Below, in pieces: positions 7,876 through 63,832 of a stretch of DNA of 64,000 nt (its first letter is position 1; every line of letters starts with the position of its first letter). The notes under the pieces were generated by a model that was not told where the DNA came from, searched no databases, and saw only the letters and a program-made list of their open reading frames with translations. The DNA is from Nitrospira sp. (GTDB lineage Bacteria; Nitrospirota; Nitrospiria; Nitrospirales; Nitrospiraceae). The stretch spans positions 130,870 through 194,869 of the forward strand of contig SWDM01000023.1 in NCBI GenBank assembly GCA_005116835.1, in the 5' to 3' direction. A program made the translations under genes and the position numbers.

Positions 7876-7897
7876 ACAAGATAAGAGAGGTGAAGCC

Positions 7898-9450: not shown

Positions 9451-9882
9451 GTGACCACGATAGAGTCAGCCGCTCGGGGTGGGACTGGGGAGACTATTGC
9501 CGGCTGCGAGGTATCTTTTGTGGTCCACGTTACGTTGGGAGACCAAGCGGAGTTTCTGGCCGGCGACCATACAGTTTTGCGGGAGTTGCTGCATCCATCC
9601 AAACAACCGCTTGAGCTTGGGTACAGCGTGGCGCATGGGACAGTGGCTCCTGGCGCTCGTTCGAAATGGCACAGGCTGACGTCTTCTGAGGTCTATTACA
9701 TCATAGCCGGTCAGGGTCGGCTAACCGTAGACGATTCGGTTGTTCCAGTGGAGCCAGGCTCTGTCGTCTATGTGCAACCGGGAGGCAAGCAGTCTTTAGA
9801 GAATACTGGTCCAACTCCCATTGAGTTCCTCTGCTTAGTCGATCCCGCTTGGAGAGCGGAGGATGAGGAAGTATTGGAGTAA
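9451..9882 (+). CDS. Cupin domain protein
   Basis: This 143-residue protein has a single cupin barrel in its second half. The motifs [29 protein letters not shown] and [22 protein letters not shown] show the two metal-site blocks, with at least one histidine (KWHRL) and one glutamate retained. The first 60 residues form an additional strand-rich region. It sits 5 bp after leuA and ahead of leuB, so it belongs to the leucine operon by position. No enzyme activity can be assigned. The GTG start is chosen by frame length and is not strongly supported by a ribosome-binding site. Confidence 0.75.
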
Positions 9883-9922
9883 GGCTTGTGGCGTCATAAC
9901 TCACAACGAGGGAGAGTGGTCT

Positions 9923-10996: not shown

Positions 10997-11004
10997 CTGA
11001 ATCT

Positions 11005-12222: not shown

Positions 12223-12233
12223 GATCAAGGCTC

Positions 12234-13256: not shown

Positions 13257-13510
13257 TGGCAGAATGGGGAAACCTGGGAAAGGTCTTCGTTGGGGTCGGG
13301 CTCTCTGTGGTGCTGGTTGGTCTATTGCTGCTGATAGCAGACCGAGTTCCTGGAATTGGGAATGTCCTGGGATGGTTCGGCAAGCTTCCCGGCGACATCT
13401 CTATTCGACGAGATAACTTCAGTTTTTCATTTCCCCTCGCAAGCAGCCTACTCATCAGTATCGTTCTAAGTCTGGTATTCTATTTAATAACATGGATCTT
13501 TCGCCGATGA
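13256..13510 (+). CDS. DUF2905 family membrane protein
   Basis: This 84-residue protein has two membrane segments (about residues 9-27 and 59-81) joined by the family-typical VPGIGNVLGWFGKLPGDISI loop. Members of this family are small bacterial inner-membrane proteins of unknown function. Its start overlaps the asd stop (TGATGG) and its stop overlaps the next gene by ATGA, so it is a coupled member of this operon. Confidence 0.85.
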   Translation: MAEWGNLGKVFVGVGLSVVLVGLLLLIADRVPGIGNVLGWFGKLPGDISIRRDNFSFSFPLASSLLISIVLSLVFYLITWIFRR

Positions 13511-14721: not shown

Positions 14722-15740
14722 TGAATCTCTCTGAATTCGATTTTCCGTTCGATCCGGCGCTCATTGCTACGCACCCCATTCTTCCGCGCGATCATGCCAG
14801 ACTGTTGGTTTTGGAACGACTCAACCGCTCGCTTGCGCATCGCCGCATCGACGCGTTGCCCGACATTCTGCAGCCCGGGGATCTTCTGGTAGTCAACAAT
14901 ACGAAGGTGTTGGCCGCGCGCGTGGCTGGCCGGAAGCATCCATCAGGAAGGGAAGTCGAGATCCTTTTTGTGAAGGATCTTGGCGATGCGATCTGGGAAG
15001 TGCTGATTAAAGGAACCTTTCGGCCTGGACAGATTATTGAGATGGGAGTAGCGGCTTCTGCTGTAGTGGTCGAGCGTGGCGCGACACGAACGACGGTTCG
15101 GGTTGAGAGTCCGATTCCGTTTTCAGAATGGCTGCGACAACATGGTCGAATGCCGCTCCCGCCCTACTTGAAACGAGCGCCGATTGACCAGGATCGGGAA
15201 TGGTACCAAACCACGTTCGCGCTGCATGAGGGCGCCATTGCGGCGCCTACTGCCGGGCTCCATTTCACACCGGAGTTGCTGGCGCGGCTGCGACAGAGCG
15301 GGATCGGTCTCACGGCCGTCACGCTCCATGTGGGTGTCGGGACTTTCAAGCCGGTAACGGTCGATCAGATCGAAGACCATCAGATGGGCGTAGAGTGGAT
15401 CGAGGTCGGAGCGGAGGCGGTTCGTTCCATTGAGCAGGTACGGGCGGCAGGGGGGCGAATTGTTTCTGTTGGGACTACGGTCGTACGCGCGCTCGAAACT
15501 GCGGCCCGTGTGGACGGTCAGATCCGACCCTATTGTGGAGAGACAGATATATTTATGACGCCAGGGTTTTCTTTCAAGGTGGTCGATGCTCTTCTCACGA
15601 ATTTTCACTTGCCACGCACCACATTGCTAATGCTGGTCTCCGCATTGGCTGGGACCGAATTTCTTCGCCAGGCTTATGTCGAGGCGGTCCACGAACGATA
15701 CCGTTTCTACAGCTATGGCGATGCGATGTTGATACTGTGA
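14721..15740 (+). CDS. queA: tRNA preQ1(34) S-adenosylmethionine ribosyltransferase-isomerase
   Basis: This enzyme adds the epoxycyclopentanediol precursor to preQ1 at tRNA position 34, a late step of queuosine synthesis. The 339-residue protein shows FDFPFDPALIATHP at the start. It also has VNNTKVLAARVAG, LPPYLKRAPIDQDREWYQT, GAIAAPTAGLHFT and the C-terminal NFHLPRTTLLMLVSALAG. The start overlaps the previous stop by one base. Its presence shows that the host runs the queuosine pathway, which matters for the QueC-like gene in the immune operon at 46.4 kb. Confidence 0.96.
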   Translation: MNLSEFDFPFDPALIATHPILPRDHARLLVLERLNRSLAHRRIDALPDILQPGDLLVVNNTKVLAARVAGRKHPSGREVEILFVKDLGDAIWEVLIKGTFRPGQIIEMGVAASAVVVERGATRTTVRVESPIPFSEWLRQHGRMPLPPYLKRAPIDQDREWYQTTFALHEGAIAAPTAGLHFTPELLARLRQSGIGLTAVTLHVGVGTFKPVTVDQIEDHQMGVEWIEVGAEAVRSIEQVRAAGGRIVSVGTTVVRALETAARVDGQIRPYCGETDIFMTPGFSFKVVDALLTNFHLPRTTLLMLVSALAGTEFLRQAYVEAVHERYRFYSYGDAMLIL

Positions 15741-15839: not shown

Positions 15840-16544
15840 TTACAGCAACTCTCGGTTGATCTTAATATGGATGGTTGTTTTGAGCGATTCTGTGTAGGCC
15901 AAGAGTGCGCGCTGCTGTTTCTGAAAGAGGACATCCTGCACGGCGCGATCCTTTGCCGCAGTGGTTTTTGATGGATCCGATTCTGTTTGCCGCAGGGTGA
16001 GAGCTTGGGCCTCGGCAAGCTCGGCAGGGGTAAGGGAAACGGCGTCACGGATAATCATCTTGGCTTTGCTGCTCAGGACTTCTTTTGCTTCCATCGCTTC
16101 GAATGCTGAGGGCGTCAGATGATTCGCGGCGAGAAGCCGCTGGTAAATCTCTGGATCGAACGCGCCATTCTTTTGAAAATCGGGGATTTGCATGATGACT
16201 TCCCGTAATTCGTCGTTACTCACGGTAAGGCCCATGTTTTTTGCGGCAATGAGCCAGGTCCGAGTATCGATGAGTTGATCCACCACTAATTGTTTGATCG
16301 TTTCGTCTTTGAATTCTCCGGGCACCTTGTCCTTGTAGAAGCGATAGGTATTCTCATAGGCTCGCCTAAACTCTTCGCGGGATACGGTGAGATCACCGAC
16401 TGATGCGACGCCGGTTCCGGCGCCAGACTGATCACCGAAGCCCCACCAGCCCATGGTGATGACAAATGCGATGGCGATGACCCCCATGACGGATTTAAGG
16501 AGCCAGGGATAGCTATGCGACGCGTTGCGCATCAATTTAAGCAT
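15840..16544 (-). CDS. SurA/PpiD-type N-terminal chaperone domain protein
   Basis: The 234-residue product has a short cytoplasmic tail, one membrane anchor (VMGVIAIAFVITMGWWGFGD, about residues 19-38) and a periplasmic region. That region has VSREEFRRAYENTYR, TIKQLVVDQLIDTRTWLIAAKNMGL and GAFDPEIYQRLL, the arrangement of the PpiD/SurA N-terminal domain. The parvulin isomerase domain expected after it is absent, and the protein ends in a helical tail. It could act as an anchored periplasmic chaperone. It is monocistronic and convergent with queA. Confidence 0.8.
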   Translation of the reverse strand: MLKLMRNASHSYPWLLKSVMGVIAIAFVITMGWWGFGDQSGAGTGVASVGDLTVSREEFRRAYENTYRFYKDKVPGEFKDETIKQLVVDQLIDTRTWLIAAKNMGLTVSNDELREVIMQIPDFQKNGAFDPEIYQRLLAANHLTPSAFEAMEAKEVLSSKAKMIIRDAVSLTPAELAEAQALTLRQTESDPSKTTAAKDRAVQDVLFQKQQRALLAYTESLKTTIHIKINRELL

Positions 16545-16713
16545 GACAACCTTTCATGACGTTCGTATCGGAGAATACTAACCGGGGATCTATGTAAAGG
16601 CAAGAGACGACCATTCCTTTACACGATGATTCCATAATCGTGACAGGGGCGCTGTTGTTGAAGGCCAGAATGTTGACTCGTGATACTCCACTTTTCCAGA
16701 TAATGTTCTTTGT

Positions 16714-16742
16714 TTGTGCTAGGTAGTTTGATTTGTTATACT
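16714..16742 (+). promoter_or_regulatory. Sigma-70-type promoter for the RDD-mre operon
   Basis: TTGTGC (16714-16719) is separated by 17 bases from TATACT (16737-16742). The TTG start of the RDD gene is 26 bases further on, with GTGAGGAG before it. This is by motif inspection only. Confidence 0.5.
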
Positions 16743-16767
16743 TTGCCACGAATTGTGAGGAGATCCC

Positions 16768-17226
16768 TTGGCGGAGGAGGTCAGCGGGGTTCATACGATC
16801 GATAGTGGGGTCTACCCTAAGGCGCAGGTTCTTAACCGAGGAATCGCCAAGCTGATTGATCTGTTCATCGTTGCTGCTGCCAGTCAAATGATTGGGCCGG
16901 TAGGTTTTCTTGCAGGATTGGCGTATATATTGATCAGTGATGGATTTGCCGGTGGGCGCAGTATCGGTAAGCGGTTGATCGGTCTCCAGACTGTATTTCC
17001 TGGTCGTCGCGAAGCGGCAGGGTTTCGCGATTCCATTATCCGGAACTTGCCTTTTGCGGTTGCTCAGTTAGCCTTCGCTATCCCCTACGTCGGATGGCTT
17101 GTATCGGTTGTAATCATAGGGTTCGAAGCGGTCTTGATTCTCGGGAATGAGCAGGGACGGCGCCTGGGTGACGAGGTGGCTGGCACCCAAATTCTGGATG
17201 TAGGTCGATTGGCATTGCCTGACTGA
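16768..17226 (+). CDS. RDD family membrane protein
   Basis: The 152-residue product has the RDD-family layout. NRGIAKLIDLFIVAAASQMIG opens the first membrane segment with the Arg and Asp of the family name. GRSIGKRLIGLQTV lies between the first pair and the last pair of hydrophobic segments, and the C-terminus has GRRLGDEVAGTQIL. RDD proteins are of mixed or unknown function, and some take part in ion transport. The TTG start is chosen because it follows GTGAGGAG at a good distance. It is the first gene before mreB, about 37 bp away. Confidence 0.8.
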   Translation: MAEEVSGVHTIDSGVYPKAQVLNRGIAKLIDLFIVAAASQMIGPVGFLAGLAYILISDGFAGGRSIGKRLIGLQTVFPGRREAAGFRDSIIRNLPFAVAQLAFAIPYVGWLVSVVIIGFEAVLILGNEQGRRLGDEVAGTQILDVGRLALPD

Positions 17227-17245
17227 GTGGGTCGTCATCGAATGA

Positions 17246-18313
<1,068 letters not shown>

Positions 18314-49678: not shown

Positions 49679-49974
49679 ATTGATATGGTGGCGGTACTGC
49701 GCAGCACTTGCTGAATGCAGTCCACCTTGCCCGGGCGATGATATATGGCATCTGTTGCCCTGATAGATCCATGCAACCATTACATCTACTAATCAGTGCT
49801 GCACCGAATTGACGAGAAATTGTTAGAAGGGTACACTCGCGTCGCGAGAGTCTTTGGATGCCTTAGAACCTGGGACCGAAAAGAAGTTGAGGAGGTAGTT
49901 GCACCGGCTGAGATTTTGCGTGCCCCATCCATTGGAAGACGAGCCTGTTGTTAATCCGCTCAAGTAGCTCGACC
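49679..49974. other. Non-coding stretch after the MITE
   Basis: About 300 bp hold no convincing reading frame, promoter or RNA. A short hairpin, CTCGCGTCGCGAG, is near 49838. Scattered similarity to coding composition suggests decayed gene sequence, but nothing can be named. Confidence 0.5.
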
Positions 49975-51318
49975 ATGCTGCCACTATGCTTCGTGCTCAT
50001 GCCCTTCGGGAAAAAGCCAGCTGGCGATGGCCGGTTGGTGGATTTTGATTCTATTTATGAGTTGCTCATCAAGCCTGCCGTGGTGGCCGCGGGCCTTGAG
50101 CCGTTGCGTGCCGACGAGGAGATGACCGGTGGCGTGATCCACAAGCCCATGTTCGAACGGTTGATTCTCTGTGAATACGCGGTTGCAGACCTGACGACAG
50201 CCAACGCCAATGTTTTCTACGAGCTGGGATTGCGGCATGCCGTCCGACCAGCTAGCACGGTGCTGCTGTTTGCTCAGGGAATCGGCCAATTGCCATTTGA
50301 CGTTGCGCCATTACGCGCCATCCCGTACCAACTCGGCTCTGACGGCAAACCAGCGATGAACGATACGGACCGTGACAGGCTCACTACTAGGCTTCATGAA
50401 GCCCGCGAGGTCAAAACAGACAGTCCCGTTTTCCAACTCGTGGAGGGTTTTCCCGACATCCAGCGTCTCAAGACTGATGTGTTTCGCGAGCGTGTCGAGT
50501 ATTCCAGCACACTTCGACAGAAACTGGCGCAAGCTCGCAAGCAAGGCGTTGAGGCGGTTCGGGCTCTAGAGCGAGAGATAGGGCCCATACATGATGTTGA
50601 GGCAGGCGTGGTGGTCGATCTGTTCCTTTCCTACCGTGCCGTGAAGGGTTGGGGCGACATGATTGCGCTGGGCCAGGAGATGTCGGCGCCGTTGGCGGCG
50701 ACGGTTCTCGTGCAGGAACAGTTGGGGTTGGCTTTGAACCGGGCCAATCGTGGCGAAGAAGCGGAACGAATACTGCTGGCTCTGATTGAGAGTCGCGGGC
50801 CGAGCAGCGAGACGTTCGGCATCCTTGGCCGGGTGTACAAGGATCGGTGGGAAGCAGCTCTGAAGGCCGGCGAGAAGGTCCTCGCACGCGGGCTGCTTGA
50901 AAAAGCTATCGGGGCCTACCTCAAGGGGTTCGAAGCCGACTGGCGCGACGCCTATCCCGGAATCAATGCCGTGACGCTCATGGAACTGAAAGAGCCGCCC
51001 GATTCCAGGCGCGACCAACTCATCCCGGTCGTCTCATACGCCGTGGAACGTCGCATGGCTTCCGGCAAGCCAGATTATTGGGACTATGCCACCCTACTGG
51101 AGCTGGCGGTGCTCGCCAAGGATCAGAACAAGGCTGAGTTGGTGCTTGCCAACGCACTTGCTGCAGTGCGCGAATCCTGGGAGCCGGAGACCACCGCTCG
51201 GAATCTCAGGCTGATTCGTGAGACTCGCGAGCGTCGCAAGGAGCCGTTCCAGTGGCTCAAAGAAATTGAAGAGGAGTTGGAGTGTTACCCCAAAACGGTA
51301 ATGCGTGATGGCGAATAA
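49975..51318 (+). CDS. Deoxyribosyltransferase-like plus TRAFs-binding (DUF4071) protein
   Basis: The 447-residue product starts with LCFVLMPFGKK. ERLILCEYAVADLTTANANVFYELGLRHAV follows, the pattern of the nucleoside 2-deoxyribosyltransferase/TIR-like fold (about residues 1-140). The remainder is helical and TPR-like (GRVYKDRWEAALKAGEKVLARGLLEKAIGAYLKGFEADWRDAYPGINAVTLM), as in the TRAFs-binding domain family DUF4071. Such proteins occur in bacterial conflict gene clusters. The start at 49975 is preferred over a TTG 27 bases earlier. The activity is not known; the N-terminal fold suggests nucleotide or NAD processing. Confidence 0.8.
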   Translation: MLPLCFVLMPFGKKPAGDGRLVDFDSIYELLIKPAVVAAGLEPLRADEEMTGGVIHKPMFERLILCEYAVADLTTANANVFYELGLRHAVRPASTVLLFAQGIGQLPFDVAPLRAIPYQLGSDGKPAMNDTDRDRLTTRLHEAREVKTDSPVFQLVEGFPDIQRLKTDVFRERVEYSSTLRQKLAQARKQGVEAVRALEREIGPIHDVEAGVVVDLFLSYRAVKGWGDMIALGQEMSAPLAATVLVQEQLGLALNRANRGEEAERILLALIESRGPSSETFGILGRVYKDRWEAALKAGEKVLARGLLEKAIGAYLKGFEADWRDAYPGINAVTLMELKEPPDSRRDQLIPVVSYAVERRMASGKPDYWDYATLLELAVLAKDQNKAELVLANALAAVRESWEPETTARNLRLIRETRERRKEPFQWLKEIEEELECYPKTVMRDGE

Positions 51319-51396
51319 TTCGCATGCATTATTTTGGGATATATGCGTGAGAAGGAGAGAGCTTGTTGTCGCTATGGATAGGAGGTTCAGGTCACG

Positions 51397-52092
51397 ATGA
51401 AGGTTTTCCTAGGATTTTCGTTCCGTGACGAAGACAGGGAGATTGTGGGGTTGGTGGATCAGCTGATAGCCAGTCATCTTGTTGAATTGAAAACAGGAGA
51501 ACGTTTGGGAGGGGATCAATTGACTCCCGCTGTCCAACGGCGCATCGAGGACAGTGATGCACTCGTAGGTGTCCTTACCAGGCGAGACAAAAGGCAAGAT
51601 GGGAAGTGGACAACGCATCAGTGGGTGCTCGATGAGATCGGGTGGGCTAGAGCAAAGAACCGGAAGGTAATCGCTTTAGTGGAGCAGGGCGTCGACATAG
51701 GAGGAATGTTCCTATCCCATGAACACATTTCCTTGGACAAAGGCAATCCCATTCAAGGCTTGATGGCACTTTCTGACACCATCGGTCTATGGAGACGGGA
51801 GCTAGGTCGTACTGTGAAAGTCCAAATCTTGCCGGTTGCGATTGCGCAAAGAGTGGGGGATGGCGGTAATGGTGTACGGTGCCGCCACCGCCTGTGGTTA
51901 AGGGGGGCGTCTTCATCGTGGTTGGATTTGACTCCTGTGCCTGAAGCTGGAGGCACGTTTGTTTTCGTGAATGGCGTACAAGATGAGCACCTTATCCAGC
52001 TGCAAGTTCAACAGGATAGCAAGATGTGGCAGTCCGTGGCCACCTCACAATGGATTCAGGTGACGATGAAGTCCGGAGGTGTAGGCCTATGA
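51397..52092 (+). CDS. TIR-domain protein with C-terminal beta-rich domain
   Basis: The 231-residue product has a TIR-like domain (about residues 1-145). It starts MKVFLGFSFRDEDREIVGLV, and Glu80 in THQWVLDEIGWA stands in the catalytic glutamate position. The C-terminal 85 residues (RVGDGGNGVRCRHRLWLRG through WIQVTMKSGG) are strand-rich and of unknown family. The stop overlaps the pYEATS-TIR start by ATGA, so the two are translated together. It starts the second immune gene run. Confidence 0.78.
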   Translation: MKVFLGFSFRDEDREIVGLVDQLIASHLVELKTGERLGGDQLTPAVQRRIEDSDALVGVLTRRDKRQDGKWTTHQWVLDEIGWARAKNRKVIALVEQGVDIGGMFLSHEHISLDKGNPIQGLMALSDTIGLWRRELGRTVKVQILPVAIAQRVGDGGNGVRCRHRLWLRGASSSWLDLTPVPEAGGTFVFVNGVQDEHLIQLQVQQDSKMWQSVATSQWIQVTMKSGGVGL

Positions 52093-52814
52093 CAATACAG
52101 ATTAAACAACAAGCGGTCCCTAAAGGTAAGGATTGGTGGGAATGGTCGGTGTGGCTCGAGGGGGCCAAAAAAGAACTCGAGGGCATTGATCATGTTGTAT
52201 ACACACTCCATCCAACCTTTCCCAATCCTGTTGTGCCGGTTACCAACCGGGCGACAGGATTTCGATTGGATTCCTCTGGGTGGGGAGAATTCACTATTTA
52301 CCTTCAAATCAAGAATAAAGATGGCTCGACGAGCAAGCGACGGCACTACCTGAAGCTTATTGATTCAGGTATCAATATGGCCAGATCGAATCAAAAGAGC
52401 GGAAAGCTCTCTTCGGCGAAGGAACCGTCACGTCGCACGGTTTTCGTTTCCGGCGGCACAAGAGATTTAGATGCCGTTCACGCAGTTCGCGAGGCGTTAT
52501 CGGGACAGGACGTCGAGGTCGTGGGACCGCAGGATGTCAAGGCTGGACAGCAATGGCAAGGAACCGTAAGCGACATGATTGCACGAGCTGACTCTGCTGT
52601 TTTCGTGATCTCTGGCCGACCGAATCTTTGGATGAACGAGGAAATTAAAGCTGCCATCAAAGTGGGTGTGCGGCATATTCTTCCCCTCGTAATAGGCGCG
52701 AACGTGGAGTTGCCTGATATTTTGCGAGACATCAATGCTGTCCGCGTTGAGAATTCGTCGGATGTGGCAAACATTACAGAGACGATCCTTAAACAATCGC
52801 TGGGGAGGAAATGA
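52089..52814 (+). CDS. pYEATS-TIR protein
   Basis: The 241-residue product has an N-terminal prokaryotic YEATS domain (about 4-92; DWWEWSVWLEG, IDHVVYTLHPTFPNP, GWGEFTIYLQIKNKDG). A linker and a TIR domain (about 116-235) follow, starting RRTVFVSGGTRDLDAVHAV and with Glu184 or Glu185 in WMNEEIKAAI. YEATS folds in eukaryotes read acyl-lysine; the ligand of pYEATS domains is not established. The start at 52089 overlaps the upstream stop. This is probably a sensor-effector pair in one chain. Confidence 0.85.
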   Translation: MTIQIKQQAVPKGKDWWEWSVWLEGAKKELEGIDHVVYTLHPTFPNPVVPVTNRATGFRLDSSGWGEFTIYLQIKNKDGSTSKRRHYLKLIDSGINMARSNQKSGKLSSAKEPSRRTVFVSGGTRDLDAVHAVREALSGQDVEVVGPQDVKAGQQWQGTVSDMIARADSAVFVISGRPNLWMNEEIKAAIKVGVRHILPLVIGANVELPDILRDINAVRVENSSDVANITETILKQSLGRK

Positions 52815-52857
52815 TGCTTCGTCACTATTGCTAGGGGCTAAGCATGCATGGAGGAAA

Positions 52858-53766
52858 ATGATGGCTATCGCATCGAGATCGGCTCTCAGAAATGGAAGCG
52901 TGTGTTTGGGACTGTTTGGTATGTTCTTGGTGATGGGCTGTGGGCTCACGATTCAGCAAAAGGGGGCAGTGAATCAATTCGCCACTGCTACGCGTGACCT
53001 ATCCGTCTCAGCCCAGGCTGAGTTTCAGCGGAGCCGTCAAGATGTCGTCGAGATGAATCGCTTTCGGCTCGAGCTTGGTGATCCGATGGCCGACGTGAAC
53101 AAACTGGATTCGTTGCTAACCCTCGATCGAACCCGAGATCGTATCATGGCTCTTCAAGCTCTCGAAGACTATGGGGGATTGTTGAACAAACTCGTTGGTA
53201 TTGTTCCTGAGGGCGAACTTCTTGAAGCCAGCAACACTTTTGTCGGAAGCCTTAAGCAAGTCAAGGGGGTGCAGTTGACCGACCAGGAAGCGGGAGGGAT
53301 CGGAAAGGCCGTGGCCGCAGTCGGTGGGCTCTATGTTGAATACAAAAGAGCTGCGGCGGTTCGCCATGTGGTGGAAACGACACATGCACCGGTTCTTGCC
53401 GTGATCGATCTCGTGAAGAAAGACTTCGATCCGAACTCGGATTTCTGGAGTGCAGGTTACCGGAAAACGGCAGTAGACTTAAGTGGTCATGCGGAATCCC
53501 TTGATCTCCTATATCCTCCAAAGGATCTCCTGTCTAAGCAGAGCACCCAGCGGGCCAAAACCCTTGCTACCGAAAACATGAACAGATTTAGCGCTATCTC
53601 CGTACAGATCATGACTCTTGTCAGCACACTTGCTGAGGCACAAAAAAATCTTCGTCTTGTGCTGAATCCATCCGAACTCAATGTTCAAAGTATCGACCAT
53701 CTTGCAACACAAGTTCGAGATTTCAAAACCATCTACGGCCTTCTACGAAACGAAGCGCCACGCTGA
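52858..53766 (+). CDS. Lipoprotein of unknown function in immune gene run
   Basis: The 302-residue product has a lipoprotein signal (SVCLGLFGMFLVMGCGLT). A long helical body follows, with NQFATATRDLSVSAQAEFQRSRQDVVEMNRF and a C-terminal segment rich in charged helices. I recognise no family. GGAGG precedes tandem ATG codons at 52858 and 52861, and the frame further upstream is not used. It lies between the pYEATS-TIR and small helical genes on the same strand. An envelope-anchored sensor is one possible reading. Confidence 0.7.
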   Translation: MMAIASRSALRNGSVCLGLFGMFLVMGCGLTIQQKGAVNQFATATRDLSVSAQAEFQRSRQDVVEMNRFRLELGDPMADVNKLDSLLTLDRTRDRIMALQALEDYGGLLNKLVGIVPEGELLEASNTFVGSLKQVKGVQLTDQEAGGIGKAVAAVGGLYVEYKRAAAVRHVVETTHAPVLAVIDLVKKDFDPNSDFWSAGYRKTAVDLSGHAESLDLLYPPKDLLSKQSTQRAKTLATENMNRFSAISVQIMTLVSTLAEAQKNLRLVLNPSELNVQSIDHLATQVRDFKTIYGLLRNEAPR

Positions 53767-53780
53767 GCAGGAGGATGACT

Positions 53781-54164
53781 ATGCCCACAAGCCGCAAGAC
53801 ACGGAAGCGCCAAACTGCCACTCGTAAACGGAGTCTGAGCCGAGGACTTGGTGAACAGCGAGGGCTCGGACAACTTTTGCTCGACACTGTCGAAAATATC
53901 ATTGAGTTGATGAGGCACACTCAAGATCCAGACCGTCTCAAGGAACTGAACAGCAAAAGAATCGCGCTCTCGAAGGAAGCTGGCCGACTCATTGATGCCA
54001 CCCTTGATGCATCGAGTGCCGAATATCGGTCTGCTACCTTCGCACTGGAGGAAGCCGCAGGTACGATTCGTGGAGCCATTAAGGGACTTGAGGCAGTCAA
54101 GGATGCCATCCTGAAAGCGGCTAAGGCGCTGGAACTGATTGTCAAGGTGGTATCAATCGCGTAA
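53781..54164 (+). CDS. Small helical hypothetical protein
   Basis: The 127-residue product has a very basic N-terminus (SRKTRKRQTATRKRSLSRG). Amphipathic helices follow (LGQLLLDTVENIIELMRHTQ, AAGTIRGAIKGLEAVKDAILKAAKALELIVKVV); the last is hydrophobic enough to interact with a membrane. There is no family match that I know. The start at 53781 is 6 bases after AGGAGG. It lies 14 bp after the lipoprotein gene and 30 bp before the metacaspase gene, so it may be a partner or substrate of that protease. Confidence 0.65.
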   Translation: MPTSRKTRKRQTATRKRSLSRGLGEQRGLGQLLLDTVENIIELMRHTQDPDRLKELNSKRIALSKEAGRLIDATLDASSAEYRSATFALEEAAGTIRGAIKGLEAVKDAILKAAKALELIVKVVSIA

Positions 54165-54194
54165 CGCTCACTCTCTCGGTGAAAGGATCGTTAT

Positions 54195-55031
54195 ATGGCA
54201 AAGCGAGCTGTGCTCATTGGTATCAATCGGTATCAGATCCCCGGATCTGATCTGAGGGGTTGTGTCAATGACGTCAAGAATCTCCAGCAAGCGCTCACCA
54301 CGTACTATGGATTTTCAAACCAGGACATTGCGTCCCTCACCGACCTGAAGGCGACGAAGAAGGCCATGCAGTCGGCGATTAAGAAGCTGGTCACCGGTGG
54401 AAAGAAGGGCGATGTCCTGCTTCTACACTATTCAGGCCATGGGGCGAACGTGCCCGACGACAATGGTGATGAAGCGGATCACCGAGACGAGATATTGTGC
54501 CCAACCGACCTCGATTGGAATGACCCATTGCGTGACGACTGGCTCCGTAAGACATTCAATAAACTTCGATCGGGGGTGAGCCTCACGGTGATCATGGACT
54601 GCTGCCACTCAGGAACCAACACTCGCGTGTTCACTCCACCGGATGCTCCCATAAAAGAACGGTTCCTCCCCTGTCCGTTAGATTTGATGGCCAGTGAGTC
54701 CGGCAGGAAACTGCGTGGAACGCTTCGCGGTCAACTGGGAAAAGCTCCGCGAGGGCGCAAAAGAAAGAGCGATATCGTCCACGCCGATATTCAAGAGCTG
54801 CTGATCACCGGCTGCCGTGATACTCAGACCTCCGCCGATGCGCAAATCGGTGGCACCTTTAATGGTGCCTTGACCTATTACCTGGTCGAGTCGATTAGAG
54901 AGACCAAAGGCAATCTAACCTACCGAGAGCTGCATCAACGAACCGTCGCGAAACTCAAGAGCAATGAGTACGATCAAGTTCCGCAACTGGAAGGGCGACG
55001 TACGTCCTTTGATCGTCCATTTCTCAGTTAG
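54195..55031 (+). CDS. Metacaspase-like peptidase, family C14
   Basis: The 278-residue product is a caspase-fold protease. It starts AKRAVLIGINRYQIPGSDLRGCVNDV. The catalytic histidine is in LLHYSGHGANV (His82) and the catalytic cysteine in VIMDCCHSGTNT (Cys137). The C-terminal portion has ITGCRDTQTSADAQIGGTFNGALTYYL, typical of type I metacaspases. These enzymes usually cleave after Arg or Lys. It lies in a row of TIR and CHAT genes, which suggests a role in triggered proteolysis. Confidence 0.92.
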   Translation: MAKRAVLIGINRYQIPGSDLRGCVNDVKNLQQALTTYYGFSNQDIASLTDLKATKKAMQSAIKKLVTGGKKGDVLLLHYSGHGANVPDDNGDEADHRDEILCPTDLDWNDPLRDDWLRKTFNKLRSGVSLTVIMDCCHSGTNTRVFTPPDAPIKERFLPCPLDLMASESGRKLRGTLRGQLGKAPRGRKRKSDIVHADIQELLITGCRDTQTSADAQIGGTFNGALTYYLVESIRETKGNLTYRELHQRTVAKLKSNEYDQVPQLEGRRTSFDRPFLS

Positions 55032-55101
55032 CAGAGCTGTGCGATGACGCTATGACATTCCTGATGTTCGTCACCCATCCTTACTGCCTAAAGGAGTTCC
55101 C

Positions 55102-58100
55102 ATGAGTATTCAGCTGCGTATTGCCGGTCGGCCGACGTCGCCAGCGGAAGCAAGTGCAGCCGTTCGAGGAGATTCTCTCTCCGGACGAAGAGAGCAGCCC
55201 GATACGCGTCTGCTGGATGCTGTGGACGTGCTGGGCGCGTTCGAGATGTACCCGAAAGATCGTGCGGCATCGGAGAAGCCAACGATGCTTGAAGCCGAAG
55301 ACGATGACTTGATTGAATTCGTGCTGGAAGATGGCATCTCTGTGTGGACGTCGGTGGCTGCTCATCGAGAACGGCAACGCCGATTGAAGCCCGGTGTGCA
55401 GACGGCGAAGGAGCTGGATATCGACTTGGTTATCTCCACGCCCGCATCGAGCAGGGGACTGGTGAGCGATATCGTGACCGGCGCGGTACGAATTCTCCGG
55501 CTGAAACGAGACGAGGTGTGGGAACAAGCAAAAGATCCCACGCAGTGGCCGGCCTGGATAAAGCCGTACGGGGTGGCGACATTCGAGAAATTGGGGGCGT
55601 GGCTGACGGCCAAGTTGATCATCTGGTTTATCGAGAGAAAGATTCGTCCTGAAGAAGGGCTCTATCGGTGGGTCAAGCCATCGGCTGAAGACGGCCCTTC
55701 GCTCATTGCTCCAGGGAGTATTCCCTCCGATGCACATGTCCTTCTCTTTATTCATGGAACGGCCTCCAACACCATGGGGAGTTTCGGCGCGTTGCATACC
55801 GACGAGGCCTCGTCTGAATGGGACACACTCACGCGAACATTCAAAGATCATATTTACGCGTTTGACCATCGCACCTTGAGCCAGAGTCCAATCGACAATG
55901 CCGTGATGCTGGCGAACGCGCTTCCGGACGGCGCGCAAATTTCTCTGGTGTCACATTCACGGGGAGGGCAGGTGGCCGACCTGTTATGCCTACGAGAGTT
56001 GTCCTCCGAGCAGGTCAATCGGTTTCATCGAGAAGGCGACAAATCTCGCCAAGCAGATGAACATGACCGTCGACAGCTGGCTGAGTTGGCAAAGATCCTC
56101 CGTAAAAAGAAGTTTCGGATCGTGCGGCTCATTCGGGTAGCCTGTCCGGCTCAAGGGACATTGCTGGCCTCGGAGAATTTGGATCGTTTTCTCTCTGTGT
56201 TGACCAGCCTCATCGGGCTGATTCCTGTCGTGGGGCAGTCCCTGATTTACCAGGTTGCAAAACGCATCACGCTCGAAGTGGCTAAAAGCCGGTGGGATCC
56301 TTCGGTGATTCCAGGGGCCGAATCGATGGTTCCGCAATCGCCGCTCGTCGCATTACTCAATGCTCCGGACGTGCAGGGAGGGGGAGCCCTTGGCGTGATC
56401 GCTGGGGACATTGAGGACGTGAGCTGGTTCAAACGGTTGGGCACATTCATCACCGACAGGTTTATATATGACAATCAAGACAACGATTTGGTCGTCAATA
56501 CCAATTCAATGTTTCAGGGAGTGCCTCGAAGCGCAGTCTCTCGATACATTTTCGATCAGGGATCCGATGTCTCCCATTTTCGATACTTCCGAAATTCGCG
56601 CACGCGTCATCTGTTGGTGCAGTCGATTACGAACGCAGGGGAGCAATGGCCTGCGGAATTTCGCTTGCTCGATGAAGCCAAGGTTGCTCCGGTTCCCATG
56701 CTGCGTTCCATTCAAACGAGATCGGGGGCGAGCCAGCCTGTTGTCTTCGTACTCCCTGGAATCATGGGATCGGAACTACAAGCCAACGGCGACGATGTCT
56801 GGCTGAGCTATTTGAGCCTCTTCCTCGGCCATATCGACAAGATTGCGGTGGATGCACCTAATGTGGAGGTCAATGGCCTCGTCAGCACGTACTATCGTGA
56901 CCTCTGCAATTATCTGGGCGATACACATGAAGTCATTCCCTTCGGCTACGATTGGCGTCATTCAATTACACGCGCCGCTTCTAAGCTGGCGGACGAAGTG
57001 AAGAAGGTGGTGGCTCGGACAGGTGAACCAATTCGGTTCATCGCCCACAGCATGGGTGGTCTCGTGGTACGGCGGCTCATCAAAGACTTTCCAGATTTGT
57101 GGGAGACACTGTGCAAACGGGAGGGCGCTCGATTCGTCATGCTGGGGACGCCCAACCGCGGGTCCTATGATATGGTGGAGTCACTGGCTGGCATGGCGAA
57201 AACTGTCAAACAGCTGGCCTTGCTCGATGTTACCCATTCGATGAGTGAAATCGTCGCGATTGTGTCTGCCTACCAAGGGGCGCTGGAGCTCTTGCCTCAA
57301 GATGAAGGGGAATATTTTACCTCTCAAAAATGGACGGAACTTCATCCGCTGACGGAATCCAAAGTTCAGATCAAGCCCCAAATACTGCAAGATGCCAAGG
57401 CCGCGCTTGCCGATCTTCCTGAACGGATTCCCCATGCGGAGTGCGTGCGTTACGTGGCGGGGTGGGCGCCCAAGACCGTGTGTGGAGTGAAGGTCGAAAA
57501 CCAACGCCTCTCCTTTCAGGCAACGACGGCGGGCGATGGCCGTGTGACCTATAAAGCGGGTCTGCTTCCGGACATTCCTGTGTGGTATGTCGATGCCGAG
57601 CATGGCGACTTGGCGGACCACAAGCCGGCGTTTCCAGCCTATCGCGACTTGCTTGAGCGAGGCGTGACCAATCAGCTTTCTACCACACCCTTGAGCGCCG
57701 ACCGAGGCGGCGAATCGATCTTCGACTACGAGCATGAACCGGTGTTGTACCCGACAGCATCGGATTTTGAAGCAGGCCTGCTCGGGAAGCGGCGAAAAGC
57801 ACTGAAAGTACGCACTTCCGAGAAGTTGCAGGTGTCGGTGCTGCACGGCGATCTGATTCACACCAACCATCCTATTCTGCTCGGTCATTACCAGGGCGAC
57901 ACGATTTTCGGGTCTGAACAGCTCGTGGACCGTTTTTTGGTCGGAAATTCTCTATCCCAACGCTACAATTTGGGCCGTTATCCAGGGCGAACGGAGACGG
58001 TTGCCGTTGTGCTGACCCAGCCAAACGACGTTCAAACAGCCTTTCGTATCCGACACGGGGCGATCGTGATTGGCCTCGGCAAATGGGGTGAATTGACACC

Positions 58101-60741
58101 CTCGGTGCTCACCCAAGCCGTGCATCATGGCGTGATGGAGTATTGTGTGCAATTTGCCCAGTGTTGTGGTTCGACGGAAGCATCGACGATCTCGACCGGT
58201 CTCACCATCAACAGTTTACTAATCGGATCCAATACGTCGGCGAACATTGCCGTCGAGGATTCGGTGAATGCGATTGTACGAGGAGTAATTCTTGCCAATC
58301 GCGCCCTGATGGAACAGAACCATGCGTTTCCGAGAATTACACATGTTCAGTTCATTGAGCTGTATCTGGACGTGGCGATTGATGCGGCAAAAACGGTGCA
58401 TCGCCTGGCCAAGCGCATTGAGCGTGACCTTCAGGCTGAGATCGACGTGGCGACGTGGTTGAAGAAGGGGATTGGGGGGCGGACGAGGTATGTCCCATCG
58501 AGTACGCGGGGCTATTGGCGTCGCTGGACGGTCTCTGCGGTTCATGATGCCCCGGCTCCTGCCCCCTGCATCCTGTCTCCGGTGTTGAAAGATCGGCTCC
58601 GCATAACCCTTCAAGACGAGAAGGTCAATGATCCCAGAGTTCTGAATGCTCTCCTAGATTTGGCTTTCAAAGACGATGGCCCCGTGCGTCGCCATCCGCG
58701 CAAGCTTCGTTTTCTTGCTCTGTCGGATCGCGCCCGCGCTGAAGTGATTGTGGAGGAAACTCAACCGGAATTGATCGCTCAGCTCATTCAGCGTTCGATC
58801 ACCTCCACAGCGTTCAGACGGGATATCGCCAAAACGCTCTTTGAACTGTTGATCCCATTGGATCTTAAGGATAGCCTCCTCAACCAAGACCGTGTGGTAT
58901 TGGTCCTTGACGACGTGACAGCAAACTATCCTTGGGAACTAATGATCGACGTTGACCAGCCGCTGTGCATTCGGATCGGTATGGTTCGGCAGCTGGAAAC
59001 AGCCGACTACGAAGAGCGTATCCGAGATACGACCGCAACCAACGTCTATGTGGTTGGAAACCCCCTTACTCCTTCCAATTATCCGACGTTGCCCGGTGCT
59101 CAGAAAGAAGCAGAACTTGTCGCGTCATTACTGAAGCCTCACTATGCCGTCAACCATTCAAGCCAACGGCTTGGCGCCCTCGAGGTGCTCAACCAGCTCT
59201 TTGCCCAGCCCTATCGGATCATCCACATCGCCGGGCATGGCTCTTACAACGAAGCGGAGACCGAATTGTCTGGGGCGAAGGCTGGTGTGGTGCTCGACAA
59301 CGGACTCTTTCTCACCGCGGCGGAAATCGCCAAGCTGGACCCGATTCCGGAATTGGTGTTCTTGAATTGTTGCTATCTCGGGCAAATTGGCGGCACGGCT
59401 TACAATAAGATGGCCGCCAGCATCTCGCGCGAATTGATTAGAAAAGGCGTGCGTGCAGTCGTGGCAGCCGGATGGCCGGTTCGGGACGATGCGGCGCTCT
59501 GTTTCGCGCAAGTATTCTACAAGAAGCTGCTCGACTCTCAGCCGTTCGGTCATGCGCTAAAGGAGGCGAGGCAACAGACCTGGGCCCTCTTCCCGGAGTC
59601 CAACACCTGGGGGGCCTACCAAGCCTATGGGGATCCGGATTTCCGATTGAGGCAGAATCATGACGTGCAAGTAGACAACGAGGACGTGACCGTTGCGGCG
59701 GAGGAGGTGCTCATTGCCTTGGATGATCTCGAACATCAGAGCGGTGAACCGGATGTGGCAACACTCCAGAATAAACTCGACGACCTAAAAGGGAGATGCG
59801 CAGTCGATTGGCTGAAACAGGGAAATGTTCAAGAGCAGTTAGGGAAAGTCTATGGCGAGCATGGTCTCTTTCAGGAGGCGGTCGCGCACTATAAGAAGGC
59901 CGCAGAGAGTGAAGATATCGAGAATCCGGCGACGTGTCGGGGGATCGAACAGTGGATCAATCTTGAGGCGCGGCTTGGCAAGAAGATCAACGACAAGGCG
60001 AGAATTAAAAGAGCTATCAAACGGGGCCTGGATTTACTCAAGATTGCAGAAACATCCGAGCGTTTGAGTATCATGGGCAGCGCGTACAAGAGACTGGCAG
60101 AGCTTGATGAAGAGCCGAGTGAGATCACGACGAATCTGAAAGAGGCTGCTGCGTACTATCAAAAAGCAGCGGAGAGACAAGAGCAAGAGCCATTGGCAGA
60201 TCCGTATCCGATTATGAATTGGCTGACGATAGAGGCACTTCTTGAAACATCCAAGGTGCCGTACGAATCGTGGTTGTCGAAAGCCGAGATTCTGGCACGG
60301 CAGCGTTTCCAGGCGACGCGCAAGGCGTGGGATTTGTTTGCCGTAGCGGATATCGAAGTTCTCCGAGCCATTCAGAATAAAAAAGAGTCGATAAAGAGCG
60401 CTGGGCTTGTGGGTAAGTATCGAAAGGTCTTTACCGAGTCGGCTGCGACCCAACGAGAACAAGATTCAGCTCGCAGTCAATTAGAGTTCATAATCACGAT
60501 GCGGCAGAAATTGTCTCGCTCTCGTCGCCAAAAGAGGGCGGTCGATTCGATCGGTGACGCACTGACCGATATTCGACATCATCTTGAGAAGTCGAAGCCC
60601 CAGGCGAAACCCTCGCCGATCCAACCAAAAGTAACCAGCAAGCCCTCCCCCACAAGCAAGGCACCGGCGAAACAGCCTTTGCAAAAGAGTTCCGTGCAAG
60701 AGAAAAAAACGCGTCGTCCGAAGCGTCACAGGAAGGGATAG
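55102..60741 (+). CDS. Giant double alpha/beta-hydrolase, CHAT protease and TPR protein
   Basis: The 1879-residue product combines several domains. The first hydrolase (about 210-520) has HVLLFIHGTASN and the nucleophile elbow SHSRGG (Ser286). The second, LCAT/lipase-like (about 545-760), has PGIMGSEL (552-559) and AHSMGG (Ser650). A middle region of unknown family (about 800-1250) follows. The CHAT protease domain (about 1270-1530) has HIAGHG (His1379) and FLNCCYLG (Cys1423/Cys1424). TPR-like helices (about 1560-1780) and a basic, Pro/Lys-rich tail end the protein. Coupling a caspase-like protease to lipases in one chain suggests self-activation or membrane damage. It follows the metacaspase by 70 bp. 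Confidence 0.88.
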   Translation: MSIQLRIAGRPTSPAEASAAVRGDSLSGRREQPDTRLLDAVDVLGAFEMYPKDRAASEKPTMLEAEDDDLIEFVLEDGISVWTSVAAHRERQRRLKPGVQTAKELDIDLVISTPASSRGLVSDIVTGAVRILRLKRDEVWEQAKDPTQWPAWIKPYGVATFEKLGAWLTAKLIIWFIERKIRPEEGLYRWVKPSAEDGPSLIAPGSIPSDAHVLLFIHGTASNTMGSFGALHTDEASSEWDTLTRTFKDHIYAFDHRTLSQSPIDNAVMLANALPDGAQISLVSHSRGGQVADLLCLRELSSEQVNRFHREGDKSRQADEHDRRQLAELAKILRKKKFRIVRLIRVACPAQGTLLASENLDRFLSVLTSLIGLIPVVGQSLIYQVAKRITLEVAKSRWDPSVIPGAESMVPQSPLVALLNAPDVQGGGALGVIAGDIEDVSWFKRLGTFITDRFIYDNQDNDLVVNTNSMFQGVPRSAVSRYIFDQGSDVSHFRYFRNSRTRHLLVQSITNAGEQWPAEFRLLDEAKVAPVPMLRSIQTRSGASQPVVFVLPGIMGSELQANGDDVWLSYLSLFLGHIDKIAVDAPNVEVNGLVSTYYRDLCNYLGDTHEVIPFGYDWRHSITRAASKLADEVKKVVARTGEPIRFIAHSMGGLVVRRLIKDFPDLWETLCKREGARFVMLGTPNRGSYDMVESLAGMAKTVKQLALLDVTHSMSEIVAIVSAYQGALELLPQDEGEYFTSQKWTELHPLTESKVQIKPQILQDAKAALADLPERIPHAECVRYVAGWAPKTVCGVKVENQRLSFQATTAGDGRVTYKAGLLPDIPVWYVDAEHGDLADHKPAFPAYRDLLERGVTNQLSTTPLSADRGGESIFDYEHEPVLYPTASDFEAGLLGKRRKALKVRTSEKLQVSVLHGDLIHTNHPILLGHYQGDTIFGSEQLVDRFLVGNSLSQRYNLGRYPGRTETVAVVLTQPNDVQTAFRIRHGAIVIGLGKWGELTPSVLTQAVHHGVMEYCVQFAQCCGSTEASTISTGLTINSLLIGSNTSANIAVEDSVNAIVRGVILANRALMEQNHAFPRITHVQFIELYLDVAIDAAKTVHRLAKRIERDLQAEIDVATWLKKGIGGRTRYVPSSTRGYWRRWTVSAVHDAPAPAPCILSPVLKDRLRITLQDEKVNDPRVLNALLDLAFKDDGPVRRHPRKLRFLALSDRARAEVIVEETQPELIAQLIQRSITSTAFRRDIAKTLFELLIPLDLKDSLLNQDRVVLVLDDVTANYPWELMIDVDQPLCIRIGMVRQLETADYEERIRDTTATNVYVVGNPLTPSNYPTLPGAQKEAELVASLLKPHYAVNHSSQRLGALEVLNQLFAQPYRIIHIAGHGSYNEAETELSGAKAGVVLDNGLFLTAAEIAKLDPIPELVFLNCCYLGQIGGTAYNKMAASISRELIRKGVRAVVAAGWPVRDDAALCFAQVFYKKLLDSQPFGHALKEARQQTWALFPESNTWGAYQAYGDPDFRLRQNHDVQVDNEDVTVAAEEVLIALDDLEHQSGEPDVATLQNKLDDLKGRCAVDWLKQGNVQEQLGKVYGEHGLFQEAVAHYKKAAESEDIENPATCRGIEQWINLEARLGKKINDKARIKRAIKRGLDLLKIAETSERLSIMGSAYKRLAELDEEPSEITTNLKEAAAYYQKAAERQEQEPLADPYPIMNWLTIEALLETSKVPYESWLSKAEILARQRFQATRKAWDLFAVADIEVLRAIQNKKESIKSAGLVGKYRKVFTESAATQREQDSARSQLEFIITMRQKLSRSRRQKRAVDSIGDALTDIRHHLEKSKPQAKPSPIQPKVTSKPSPTSKAPAKQPLQKSSVQEKKTRRPKRHRKG

Positions 60742-60845
60742 GCGCGAAGAGAAGGCTTGGTAAATGGGATCTATAACAGAGAATGCGAAGATCTCAGATG
60801 GCGGCCTTCAAGTTCAGAGGTGTCTGATTCTAAGATGGAGTACGA

Positions 60846-62000
60846 ATGGAACCAGTCGATCTGTTTTACAGCTATGCCCATGAGGATAAGTCGCTACGCG
60901 ACGAACTCGCGGGGCACCTCAAGATTATGGAGCGCCGTGGCGTGATTCGGTCATGGCACGACGGGTGTCTGACTCCCGGTCAGAAATGGGACGACGAGAT
61001 CAATGCGCAGTTACAAGCCGCAGACCTCGTGCTGCTGCTGGTTAGCACGGACTTCATCAACTCGGACTATATCTGGGGCCACGAGTTGGACGTGGCTATG
61101 AAGCGGCATGCGAATGGGAAGATAAGCCTGGTTCCGGTGATGCTGCGCGCCGTGGATATTACCGGCGCCCCCTTTGCTGATTTGCAGGGCCTGCCGACGG
61201 ACCGGCGGCCCGTGACCTCGTGGCCTAATCGGGATGAGGCCTGGACGGATGTGGCCAAGGGGATCAGAAAAACGGTGGAACTGATTCAAGCGAAATGGAG
61301 TCAGCTCGCACCATCGCCGGCACTAACGCCTCCGGCGGAAGCGCCCGCGCCACCACGCGCCATGGCTTCCCCAGCCGCATCGGGAGAGGGGCAGAGTTTG
61401 AGATTTGTGCGGCCGAAAGAAATCCTTCTCAGCTCCGATAAGCCCACGGCGAGTACTAGCCCCACGGTGGTTACGTCTGACCCGTTACTCGACCGTGTCG
61501 TGAAGGAATTTTCAGCGAAGGTCACAGAAGCCGCCAAATCCCGTGGGGGTCATGACCTTGATCCGGCGATGGCCAAGCAATACGCGCTCACACTAATCGA
61601 CGCACCGGACCAAAAGCGTATCCTCTGGGTAGATGATCGGCCTGACAACAACCGGTTCGAAGCAGCGGCCCTGGCCAAGCTTCAGATTGAGGTGGTGGCG
61701 GTTACCAGTACGAAGGCTGCGTTGGCACGGCTGGCCTCAGATCCCGAGCCGTTCGACTTGGTGTTGTCGGATTGGCAACGGCCTGAGTTGCACCTTGATA
61801 CGCTGAGCGCGGGGATCCATCTGCTGCGGCAATTGCGAGAGCGCCATCTGACCATGCCGGTGGTGTTTTATCATGCGAGTACCAGCGAGCGGGAGCGGAG
61901 CGCGCGCCAAGAGTTGGCGATTCGTGAAGGCGCTTTTGGTGAAGCGGTCATGCCAGACGAGCTGCTTGGCTTGGTGATCAGCGCGCTTGGCGTGCATTGA
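60846..62000 (+). CDS. TIR-receiver domain fusion protein
   Basis: The 384-residue product has an N-terminal TIR domain (about 1-150) with DLFYSYAHEDKSLRDELAGHL and Glu80 in IWGHELDVAM. A Pro/Ala-rich linker (155-205) and a receiver-type domain (about 257-380) follow. In the receiver part, KRILWVDDRPDNN gives the acidic pocket and FDLVLSDWQRPE carries Asp309, where phosphorylation would occur. FYHAS stands in the Thr/Ser position. No histidine kinase is near. It lies about 100 bp after the CHAT gene and is probably last in that run. Confidence 0.85.
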   Translation: MEPVDLFYSYAHEDKSLRDELAGHLKIMERRGVIRSWHDGCLTPGQKWDDEINAQLQAADLVLLLVSTDFINSDYIWGHELDVAMKRHANGKISLVPVMLRAVDITGAPFADLQGLPTDRRPVTSWPNRDEAWTDVAKGIRKTVELIQAKWSQLAPSPALTPPAEAPAPPRAMASPAASGEGQSLRFVRPKEILLSSDKPTASTSPTVVTSDPLLDRVVKEFSAKVTEAAKSRGGHDLDPAMAKQYALTLIDAPDQKRILWVDDRPDNNRFEAAALAKLQIEVVAVTSTKAALARLASDPEPFDLVLSDWQRPELHLDTLSAGIHLLRQLRERHLTMPVVFYHASTSERERSARQELAIREGAFGEAVMPDELLGLVISALGVH

Positions 62001-62374: not shown

Positions 62375-62959
62375 TTAGCCGACCCAGGTTCCGAAGTTCG
62401 TATAGCCGTTATTGGCTACCCAATCATATTCCTTGTACCACTCCGTTAGATTGAACCCTTTGCCTCGGTACTGGGGATTGACAGCATCGATTTGATATGA
62501 CGAACGCCCGTCTATTTCGGAATACTCTCTCCAGTTTCCGTTTGAATGCTCCCAGAGCGTGGCAGTTACCCCGTTCTCTGAGAATGTGACGCCAAGATAG
62601 CCAAGCGGATTCGGTCCCTTCACCTTTGTCTGTTGATCTTTCCCTTTAATCGGGTTGATATGCACGGCGAGTATCGAGTTTCCTCTTTTGAAACTCTTCA
62701 GGATTTCATATCGTACCCACTTTCGTGCATACGTTTCTGAGCCGATCAATACACATGTGACAGTCGTCCCTTCAAGACCAGAATTGACCACACGCTTGAT
62801 GCCAACGTCGCCGGATAACTCTGCATTTCCCCAGATTGACGCATCAAAAAATCCTGCCGCCTCTCGATCTGGTTTTGTCATCCAATGCTGCCGGACGACA
62901 TTGGCGCGGAAATCGATTACATCCTGGTAGTGAAAGCTGAAAAATACACGTTTCGCCAT
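62375..62959 (-). CDS. ThsB-like TIR protein (DUF1863)
   Basis: The 194-residue product has the TIR-like domain of Thoeris ThsB. It starts KRVFFSFHYQDVIDFRANVVRQHW, has AGFFDASIWG in the middle, and VTCVLIGSETYARKWVRYEILKSFKRGN, where the glutamate in RYEI is the expected catalytic residue. A C-terminal part (VTATLWEHSNGNWREYSEID) is shared by longer members. ThsB makes a cyclic ADP-ribose isomer from NAD+. The start MAKRVFF at 62959 is preferred. It lies 90 bp after the nuclease-like gene on the same strand. Confidence 0.85.
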   Translation of the reverse strand: MAKRVFFSFHYQDVIDFRANVVRQHWMTKPDREAAGFFDASIWGNAELSGDVGIKRVVNSGLEGTTVTCVLIGSETYARKWVRYEILKSFKRGNSILAVHINPIKGKDQQTKVKGPNPLGYLGVTFSENGVTATLWEHSNGNWREYSEIDGRSSYQIDAVNPQYRGKGFNLTEWYKEYDWVANNGYTNFGTWVG

Positions 62960-63049
62960 GGCCTTTGGTCTCACATGGTGGCTGCTACTCTGCAGTTACT
63001 GTTACAACGGCTTTTTGTAAGCTATCGACGGGATGGGCTAATCCCAGCC

Positions 63050-63832
63050 TTAGACGTATTTCTTGATCTCTGTTTCCAGTATTTTTCTGAGCCTTGCTGT
63101 TTGGCCAATCGCGTATTGAATAGTCCTGTTGTTACGGACGTTAAATGGCAGCGCAGCTTGTAAAGTACAACAGATCTGAATCACTGGCTTTTGAAGTCCC
63201 TCTGCGTAGCCAATTTCATGCAGCACATTTGGCCGCGAATCTGATAGGTCTGCGATGACAACCTTGGCTGCCTCGATCATGGCTTTGATTTGGGGTACGA
63301 CCGGACCAGCGGTACCGTTGTGATCCACTCGCTCAGCGATGGCGCCATTAACAAGTGAGGCTGGATCAATCGCGACAAGAAACGTGTCGTCATACTGCGG
63401 CGCAAAAGGCATTGATGCGAATACCTTCTTCTTTGGAGCTAGCTGTACAGGTTGCGGATGCCGGGACTTTTTACTTTGAGCCAGATTGCTGGTAAGTCCT
63501 GCAAGTGCGTTGATGAGCCCGCCAATTGGTGTGACGGCGATCACTGCCGATGCGATAGATTCAAGTACGGCGGATGTAACTATTACCGCGGCGTTAGCTT
63601 TTGACATCTCCTTATAACGGTGTGCCTGATTTAAGGCTCGTGCTGTAGAGTCTGGGCTAACTTCCCAAGCTTTCACCTCGACAACGATCTGATCTCCCTT
63701 CTCGGTAGTGACCACGAAGTCCGGACGAGCCTTACCAACTACCATATCTCTTTGATAATTGATCCCTGCATCGCGCAGTGTCTTCTCAACTTGCGCCTCT
63801 AGCGCCAAATGGTCCTGAGGTTCAATCGGCAT
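63050..63832 (-). CDS. PD-(D/E)xK nuclease-like protein with deoxyribosyltransferase-like C-terminus
   Basis: The 260-residue product has a nuclease-like N-terminus (about 8-85). ARPDFVVTTEKGDQIVVEVKAW gives Asp38, Glu52 and Lys54 of the PD-(D/E)xK motif. A hydrophobic segment (about 92-113) follows, then a nucleoside 2-deoxyribosyltransferase-like domain (136-250) with KVFASMPFAPQYDDTF and VVIADLSDSRPNVLHEIGYAEGLQKPVIQI. It is upstream of a ThsB-like TIR gene on the same strand. The C-terminal fold could bind a nucleotide signal and trigger the nuclease, by analogy with Thoeris; this is inference. Confidence 0.8.
   Translation of the reverse strand: MPIEPQDHLALEAQVEKTLRDAGINYQRDMVVGKARPDFVVTTEKGDQIVVEVKAWEVSPDSTARALNQAHRYKEMSKANAAVIVTSAVLESIASAVIAVTPIGGLINALAGLTSNLAQSKKSRHPQPVQLAPKKKVFASMPFAPQYDDTFLVAIDPASLVNGAIAERVDHNGTAGPVVPQIKAMIEAAKVVIADLSDSRPNVLHEIGYAEGLQKPVIQICCTLQAALPFNVRNNRTIQYAIGQTARLRKILETEIKKYV

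Follow-up and report, generated by a model that had tools for sequence, protein, structure and literature searches.

A two-lipase CHAT protease fusion with an aminopeptidase-like domain

The window, a 64,000-nucleotide stretch of Nitrospira sp. DNA, carries a gene (55102..60741, + strand; ATG start, 1879 aa) in which two lipases are fused to a CHAT protease, and this two-lipase CHAT fusion is real and widespread in bacteria. Our main reading, to which we assign a probability of about 0.5, is that its product is the effector of a bacterial conflict system (defense or programmed cell death) that combines core activation, a caspase cascade, and a lipase arm.

A Shine-Dalgarno sequence, AAAGGAG (55090..55096, +), can be read just 5′ of the ATG. 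The product comprises, in order, a DUF7379 lipase, an LCAT/LPLA2-like lipase, an M17_N macro-fold domain, a CHAT protease, and TPR-S repeats. An earlier note, made from the letters of the window, had described a pair of alpha/beta hydrolases fused to a CHAT protease and TPRs and had named catalytic residues, all of them intact, for the three enzymes, a description borne out by Pfam, an alignment of 70 sequences, and fold comparisons; the macro-fold domain is the part that it had overlooked. The structure prediction that it proposed gave confident AlphaFold models (mean pLDDT 87.0 and 84.5), with matches to lysosomal phospholipase A2 (PLA2), bacterial lipases, and the separase, Csx29, and Craspase folds.

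Hydrolase 1 (aa 210-515; 55729..56646, +), delimited by Pfam, conservation, and fold, belongs to DUF7379 (PF24096; residues 214-305, E 1.2e-35, 123.7 bits against a cut-off of 33), with an HSRGG elbow, D462, and H492, and resembles bacterial lipases in fold (Z 17.8). Hydrolase 2 (aa 543-860; 56728..57681, +), delimited in the same way, is of the LCAT/lysosomal PLA2 type. Its Pfam match to LCAT (residues 611-750, E 1e-8, 35.3 bits against a cut-off of 21) and its fold matches to lysosomal PLA2 (4x97, Z 27.8), LCAT (Z 25.4), and the T6SS effector Tle4 (4r1d, Z 23.9) place it by profile and fold in the LCAT/group XV phospholipase A2 family, with a probable triad. It shares with these proteins both the fold and the Ser-Asp-His order but differs from them in being one piece of a protease fusion. 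The CHAT protease (aa 1201-1517; 58702..59652, +), likewise supported by Pfam (PF12770; residues 1241-1511, E 1.7e-32), conservation, and fold, is closest to separase (Z 22.1), Csx29 (Z 19.9), and Craspase TPR-CHAT (Z 19.5); a sequence search of this part against solved structures returned no match, and these similarities came from the fold search alone. The TPR-S repeats (aa 1590-1710; 59869..60231, +; Pfam E 6.4e-15) are followed in the model by helical structure up to about aa 1800.

The middle domain (aa 906-1114; 57817..58443, +) appears to be a leucyl-aminopeptidase N-domain without the peptidase half. In fold it is about equally close to the N-domain of leucyl aminopeptidase (7y1s, Z 15.6, 168 residues aligned) and to the macro domain of macroH2A1.1 (1zr3, Z 15.2, 169 residues aligned). 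Although the window sequence alone does not match Peptidase_M17_N (PF02789), 12 of 37 aligned proteins do (best E 1.1e-8), relatives with the shorter LCAT-M17N-CHAT architecture score above the cut-off of this family, and hhalign of the domain against Peptidase_M17_N gave 94% over 168 columns. The canonical macro family (PF01661) gave no match, and hhalign against a macro profile, a thin one built from three sequences, gave 1.8%. Pfam found no M17 catalytic domain in the fusion, where CHAT comes next instead, so the protein is not an M17 leucyl aminopeptidase. Stretches resembling HGDL, GHYxGD, and GTGAGG are well conserved in the middle domain, a pattern compatible with a ligand pocket.

Conservation of the catalytic sites

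Conservation defines a probable triad in each hydrolase and a dyad in the protease, all on the + strand, and the catalytic residues named in the earlier note proved correct across the 70 aligned sequences. Because the relatives were fetched partly with the patterns HSRGG and TWGAYQ, conservation at these two motifs is partly preselected, and that of the other residues is not. The probable hydrolase 1 triad comprises Ser286 (55957-55959; 69/70), Asp462 (56485-56487; 70/70), and His492 (56575-56577; 70/70). In hydrolase 2, the corresponding residues are Ser650 (57049-57051), Asp812 (57535-57537), and His834 (57601-57603), found in 67, 70, and 70 of the 70 sequences, respectively. His1379 (59236-59238), Cys1423, and Cys1424 (59371-59373) of the CHAT domain each align in 70/70. 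The earlier note had left the nucleophile between the two cysteines; both are indeed conserved, but relatives with NAC instead of NCC have alanine at 1423 and retain the cysteine at 1424, which rules out Cys1423 and identifies Cys1424 as the nucleophile. The near invariance of three catalytic sites argues for a fusion that carries three working enzymes, their catalysis being predicted from the alignment.

Distribution of the fusion

The lack of a close homologue with the same fusion, which might have pointed to an assembly error, was not observed: full-length copies at 72% and 70% identity occur in two other genomes of the phylum, copies at 37-39% are found in more distant ones, and distant copies number dozens. 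The same fusion thus appears in many independent assemblies, and an assembly error is excluded. A scan of species genomes returned at least 589 relatives. Among the matches listed, the fusion forms one open frame in about 65 near-complete relatives, which span eight phyla, and nearly all of the best relatives are single frames of about 1770-2150 aa; again among the matches listed, these come from Nitrospirota, Pseudomonadota, Desulfobacterota groups, Acidobacteriota, Cyanobacteria, Chloroflexota, Bacteroidota, and Rhodothermota. The fusion also resides, at about 32% identity, on plasmids of Azotobacter, Ensifer, and Paracoccus. A search of viral contigs and phage records found no relative of the fusion and no link to a prophage, and a viral or phage origin was therefore rejected; this lack of a phage connection speaks against the conflict reading.

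Such a broad distribution, together with the LPLA2/LCAT-like catalytic fold, would also suit a housekeeping or secreted lipid-processing enzyme whose maturation is controlled by the protease, with no conflict system involved. We consider this very improbable, since presence within the phylum is patchy (of 395 genomes, 49 match some part of the fusion and far fewer the whole of it), copies reside on plasmids, the protein contains TPR-S, and its neighbors include TIR, caspase, and STAND genes.

The operon and its recurrent partners

The fusion is gene 7 of 8 in a same-strand run (49948-62000) that encodes, in order, a DUF4071/TPR-S protein, a TIR protein, a pYEATS-TIR protein, a possible lipoprotein, a small helical protein, a C14 caspase, the fusion, and a TIR-receiver protein. 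The first of these (MAP3K_TRAF_bd [DUF4071] plus TPR-S by Pfam; 49948..51318, +) is a recurrent neighbor. The TIR-domain protein (51397..52092, +) has a weak Pfam match (TIR_2, E 0.005) and homologues beside relatives in loci L060 and L091. Its frame overlaps by 67 nt that of the pYEATS-TIR protein (52026..52814, +; Pfam), whose true start probably lies further in; the pYEATS-TIR protein is also found beside the 72% identical relative (L034/L060), where the TIR and pYEATS-TIR pair as a whole is conserved. The possible lipoprotein (52735..53766, +), judged by eye and without a Pfam match, recurs in the operons of three further Nitrospira loci, and the 129-aa helical protein (53775..54164, +) belongs to the operon in just three further loci, all from Nitrospira. 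The C14 caspase-family protease (54195..55031, +; Pfam), with intact SGHG and DCCHSG motifs, is a recurrent upstream partner. Directly downstream of the fusion lies a gene for a TIR plus response-regulator receiver protein (60846..62000, +; Pfam), at or near whose place TIR genes stand in L034 and L046. Just past the operon, on the opposite strand, are a ThsB-like TIR gene (62375-62974, −; PADLOC ThsB model, E 2.6e-53) and a gene (63050-63832, −) that weakly matches Mrr nucleases and deoxyribosyltransferase-like proteins.

Upstream DNA could be read for 64 relatives. In 19 of them, the closest gene upstream on the same strand encodes a C14 caspase, at a distance of 4-160 nt, although related genomes contain no more than 0-6 C14 genes each. 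In 13 loci of this set of 64, the fetched flanks include a DUF4071/TPR-S gene, although the DUF4071 family PF13281 occurs in just 2 of 41 related genomes. TIR genes, present in the operon of the window and next to several relatives, are neighbors in a minority overall. The caspase is absent beside about two-thirds of the relatives, and no sensor or caspase gene is annotated alongside the Azotobacter and Paracoccus plasmid copies; an adjoining caspase is thus not always needed, and the fusion may act by itself, a point that, like the minority of TIR neighbors, speaks against the conflict reading. These orphan copies, as well as the 29 of 64 loci that have no same-strand upstream gene within 400 nt, would be expected if sensor (TPR-S and M17_N) and all effectors were united in one chain and the caspase, TIR, and DUF4071 genes were separate systems of the same island. 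We regard such a stand-alone effector as rather unlikely, as caspase and DUF4071 neighbors are far more common than their genomic abundance would give.

Two relatives have further neighbors of their own. In L035, a full-length fusion and a second DUF4071-like gene are followed by a gene for a patatin-like phospholipase (16306-17442), which places another lipase in the same neighborhood; in L056 (Paracoccus yeei), the fusion gene is preceded, at 37 nt, by a gene (5253-8537) for a 1094-aa product that contains a solute-binding domain.

The earlier note had also suggested that the CHAT domain acts by cleavage, possibly of the helical protein encoded at 53.8 kb. The idea that it cleaves something is supported, but this particular target is weakened: a sequence search found homologues of the helical protein in three other Nitrospira loci only, all beside lipase-less CHAT genes and beside none of the full-length relatives. 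It was consequently rejected as a general target, with the proviso that so short a helical protein could escape a sequence search. The C14 caspase encoded directly upstream is a more general partner.

Loss of the lipases in a Nitrospira clade

Several module sets recur besides the DUF7379-LCAT-M17N-CHAT-TPR-S arrangement of the window, namely M17N-CHAT-TPR-S (about 1000 aa), LCAT-M17N-CHAT (about 1050 aa), and DUF7379-CHAT (about 970-1180 aa); the last two are independent pairings of a lipase with CHAT, and lipase plus CHAT is therefore a repeated combination. The lipase-less Nitrospira CHAT proteins (M17N-CHAT-TPR-S) form one clade nested among full-length forms in the tree, which points to loss of the lipases with retention of the protease and the caspase, and their operon (L043/L044/L046) reads DUF4071, possible lipoprotein, helical protein, caspase, and CHAT. 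As the protease is kept without lipases, it would have a job beyond freeing its own lipases, probably activation of the neighboring caspase, and the lipases seem to be a dispensable arm that damages membranes.

This bears on a second proposal of the earlier note, that CHAT releases the lipases of its own chain: once activated, it would cut between the lipase pair and M17_N and so free or activate them. The models do show linkers that are flexible and of low confidence (about aa 528-541 and 901-905), and the start of the lipase-less proteins marks a natural boundary at aa 890-905. A search of the two inter-domain linkers for a conserved self-cleavage motif nevertheless revealed none; both rank with the most poorly conserved parts of the protein and share no motif, the second being Arg/Lys-rich, and the protease persists in the lipase-less clade. 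Self-release as the main role is thus weakened and appears doubtful to us, while self-cleavage itself may still take place.

Other genes accompany the lipase-less forms. In several Nitrospira, a 258-260-aa protein is encoded 3′ of the lipase-less CHAT gene (L047 178-954, L062 13048-13830); Pfam gave no match for the copies in L047 and L043, and the protein may be an alternative effector. Beside the lipase-less CHAT operon of L042, the region 9567-15734 encodes an 886-aa DUF4062-nSTAND1-FGE protein and, on the opposite strand, a 1145-aa WD40-repeat protein.

Comparison with known conflict systems

A literature search found no paper on a lipase-CHAT fusion, with an earlier mention possible in the 2020 J Bacteriol article by Burroughs and Aravind, which reportedly defined TPR-S and pYEATS. 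The fusion resembles known caspase/hydrolase conflict systems yet seems to be undescribed. The VMAP systems are one such case: Kaur et al. 2020 reported that their caspase domains always occur with a neighboring alpha/beta hydrolase (PMC7159879). These VMAP/MoxR-vWA systems, predicted to act in conflict, share with the fusion the pairing of a caspase-superfamily protease with an alpha/beta hydrolase but encode them as separate genes around a VMAP/MoxR/vWA core, whereas the fusion joins two hydrolases to CHAT with M17_N and TPR-S and its operon has no MoxR/vWA. The fusion is a fused, differently regulated variant of the VMAP caspase/hydrolase theme.

SAVED-CHAT proteins of type III CRISPR and CBASS likewise join a sensor-like domain to CHAT (fold match Z 15.0). 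The fusion differs in having lipases and in lacking CRISPR and SAVED; Pfam gave no SAVED match, the PADLOC SAVED_CHAT model covers part of CHAT (E 0.002), and the candidate sensors are the M17_N/macro fold and TPR-S. Craspase TPR-CHAT/Csx29 also unites TPR and CHAT on a single chain (CHAT fold Z of about 18-20), but it is RNA-guided by gRAMP/Cas7-11, has no lipases, and carries its TPRs before rather than after CHAT. In Thoeris, TIR genes lie beside a macro-fold domain in type II and beside a caspase-family protease in type IV (PMC12847820), and in the window TIR genes likewise occur close to a macro-fold domain and a caspase gene; unlike in Thoeris, the M17_N sequence lies nearer to the N-domains of aminopeptidases than to canonical macro domains. 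A PADLOC search for Thoeris gave ThsB-like matches at 60846 and 62375 and no ThsA match to the fusion.

Proposed mechanism and significance

We infer the defense role, the activation signal, the order of the cascade, and the substrates as follows. The M17_N-CHAT-TPR-S protease core would be turned on by a signal that the sensing part of the operon supplies, whether TIR, DUF4071/TPR-S, or the TPR-S of the fusion itself. Active CHAT would then cleave other proteins, the likeliest result, by analogy with SAVED-CHAT, being activation of the upstream C14 caspase, and the two lipases would serve as a swappable membrane-damaging arm, freed or opened once the core is active. The fusion thus probably damages membranes and proteins as a self-destruct or defense effector. 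Individual steps have precedents: SAVED-CHAT confers immunity through a proteolytic cascade (PMC11229360), a TIR signal activates a caspase-like protease in type IV Thoeris (PMC12847820), Canu is a pro-nuclease activated by a caspase (PMC12799240), and a fungal TPR-CHAT protease activates gasdermin (PMC12881547). A more specific version, in which a TIR-made ADP-ribose nucleotide binds the M17_N/macro-fold domain and switches on CHAT, leading to activation of the caspase and both lipases, is speculative and, in our view, improbable; if true, one signal would bring about the destruction of proteins and membranes alike, as a bacterial counterpart of inflammatory cell death.

As a conflict-system effector, the fusion would represent a large and widespread family that unites lipid and protein destruction in one molecule linked to a separate caspase, and an ancient aminopeptidase domain would probably have been put to new use as a regulator. 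Since one operon exists in nature both with and without the lipases, the order of the cascade is directly testable.
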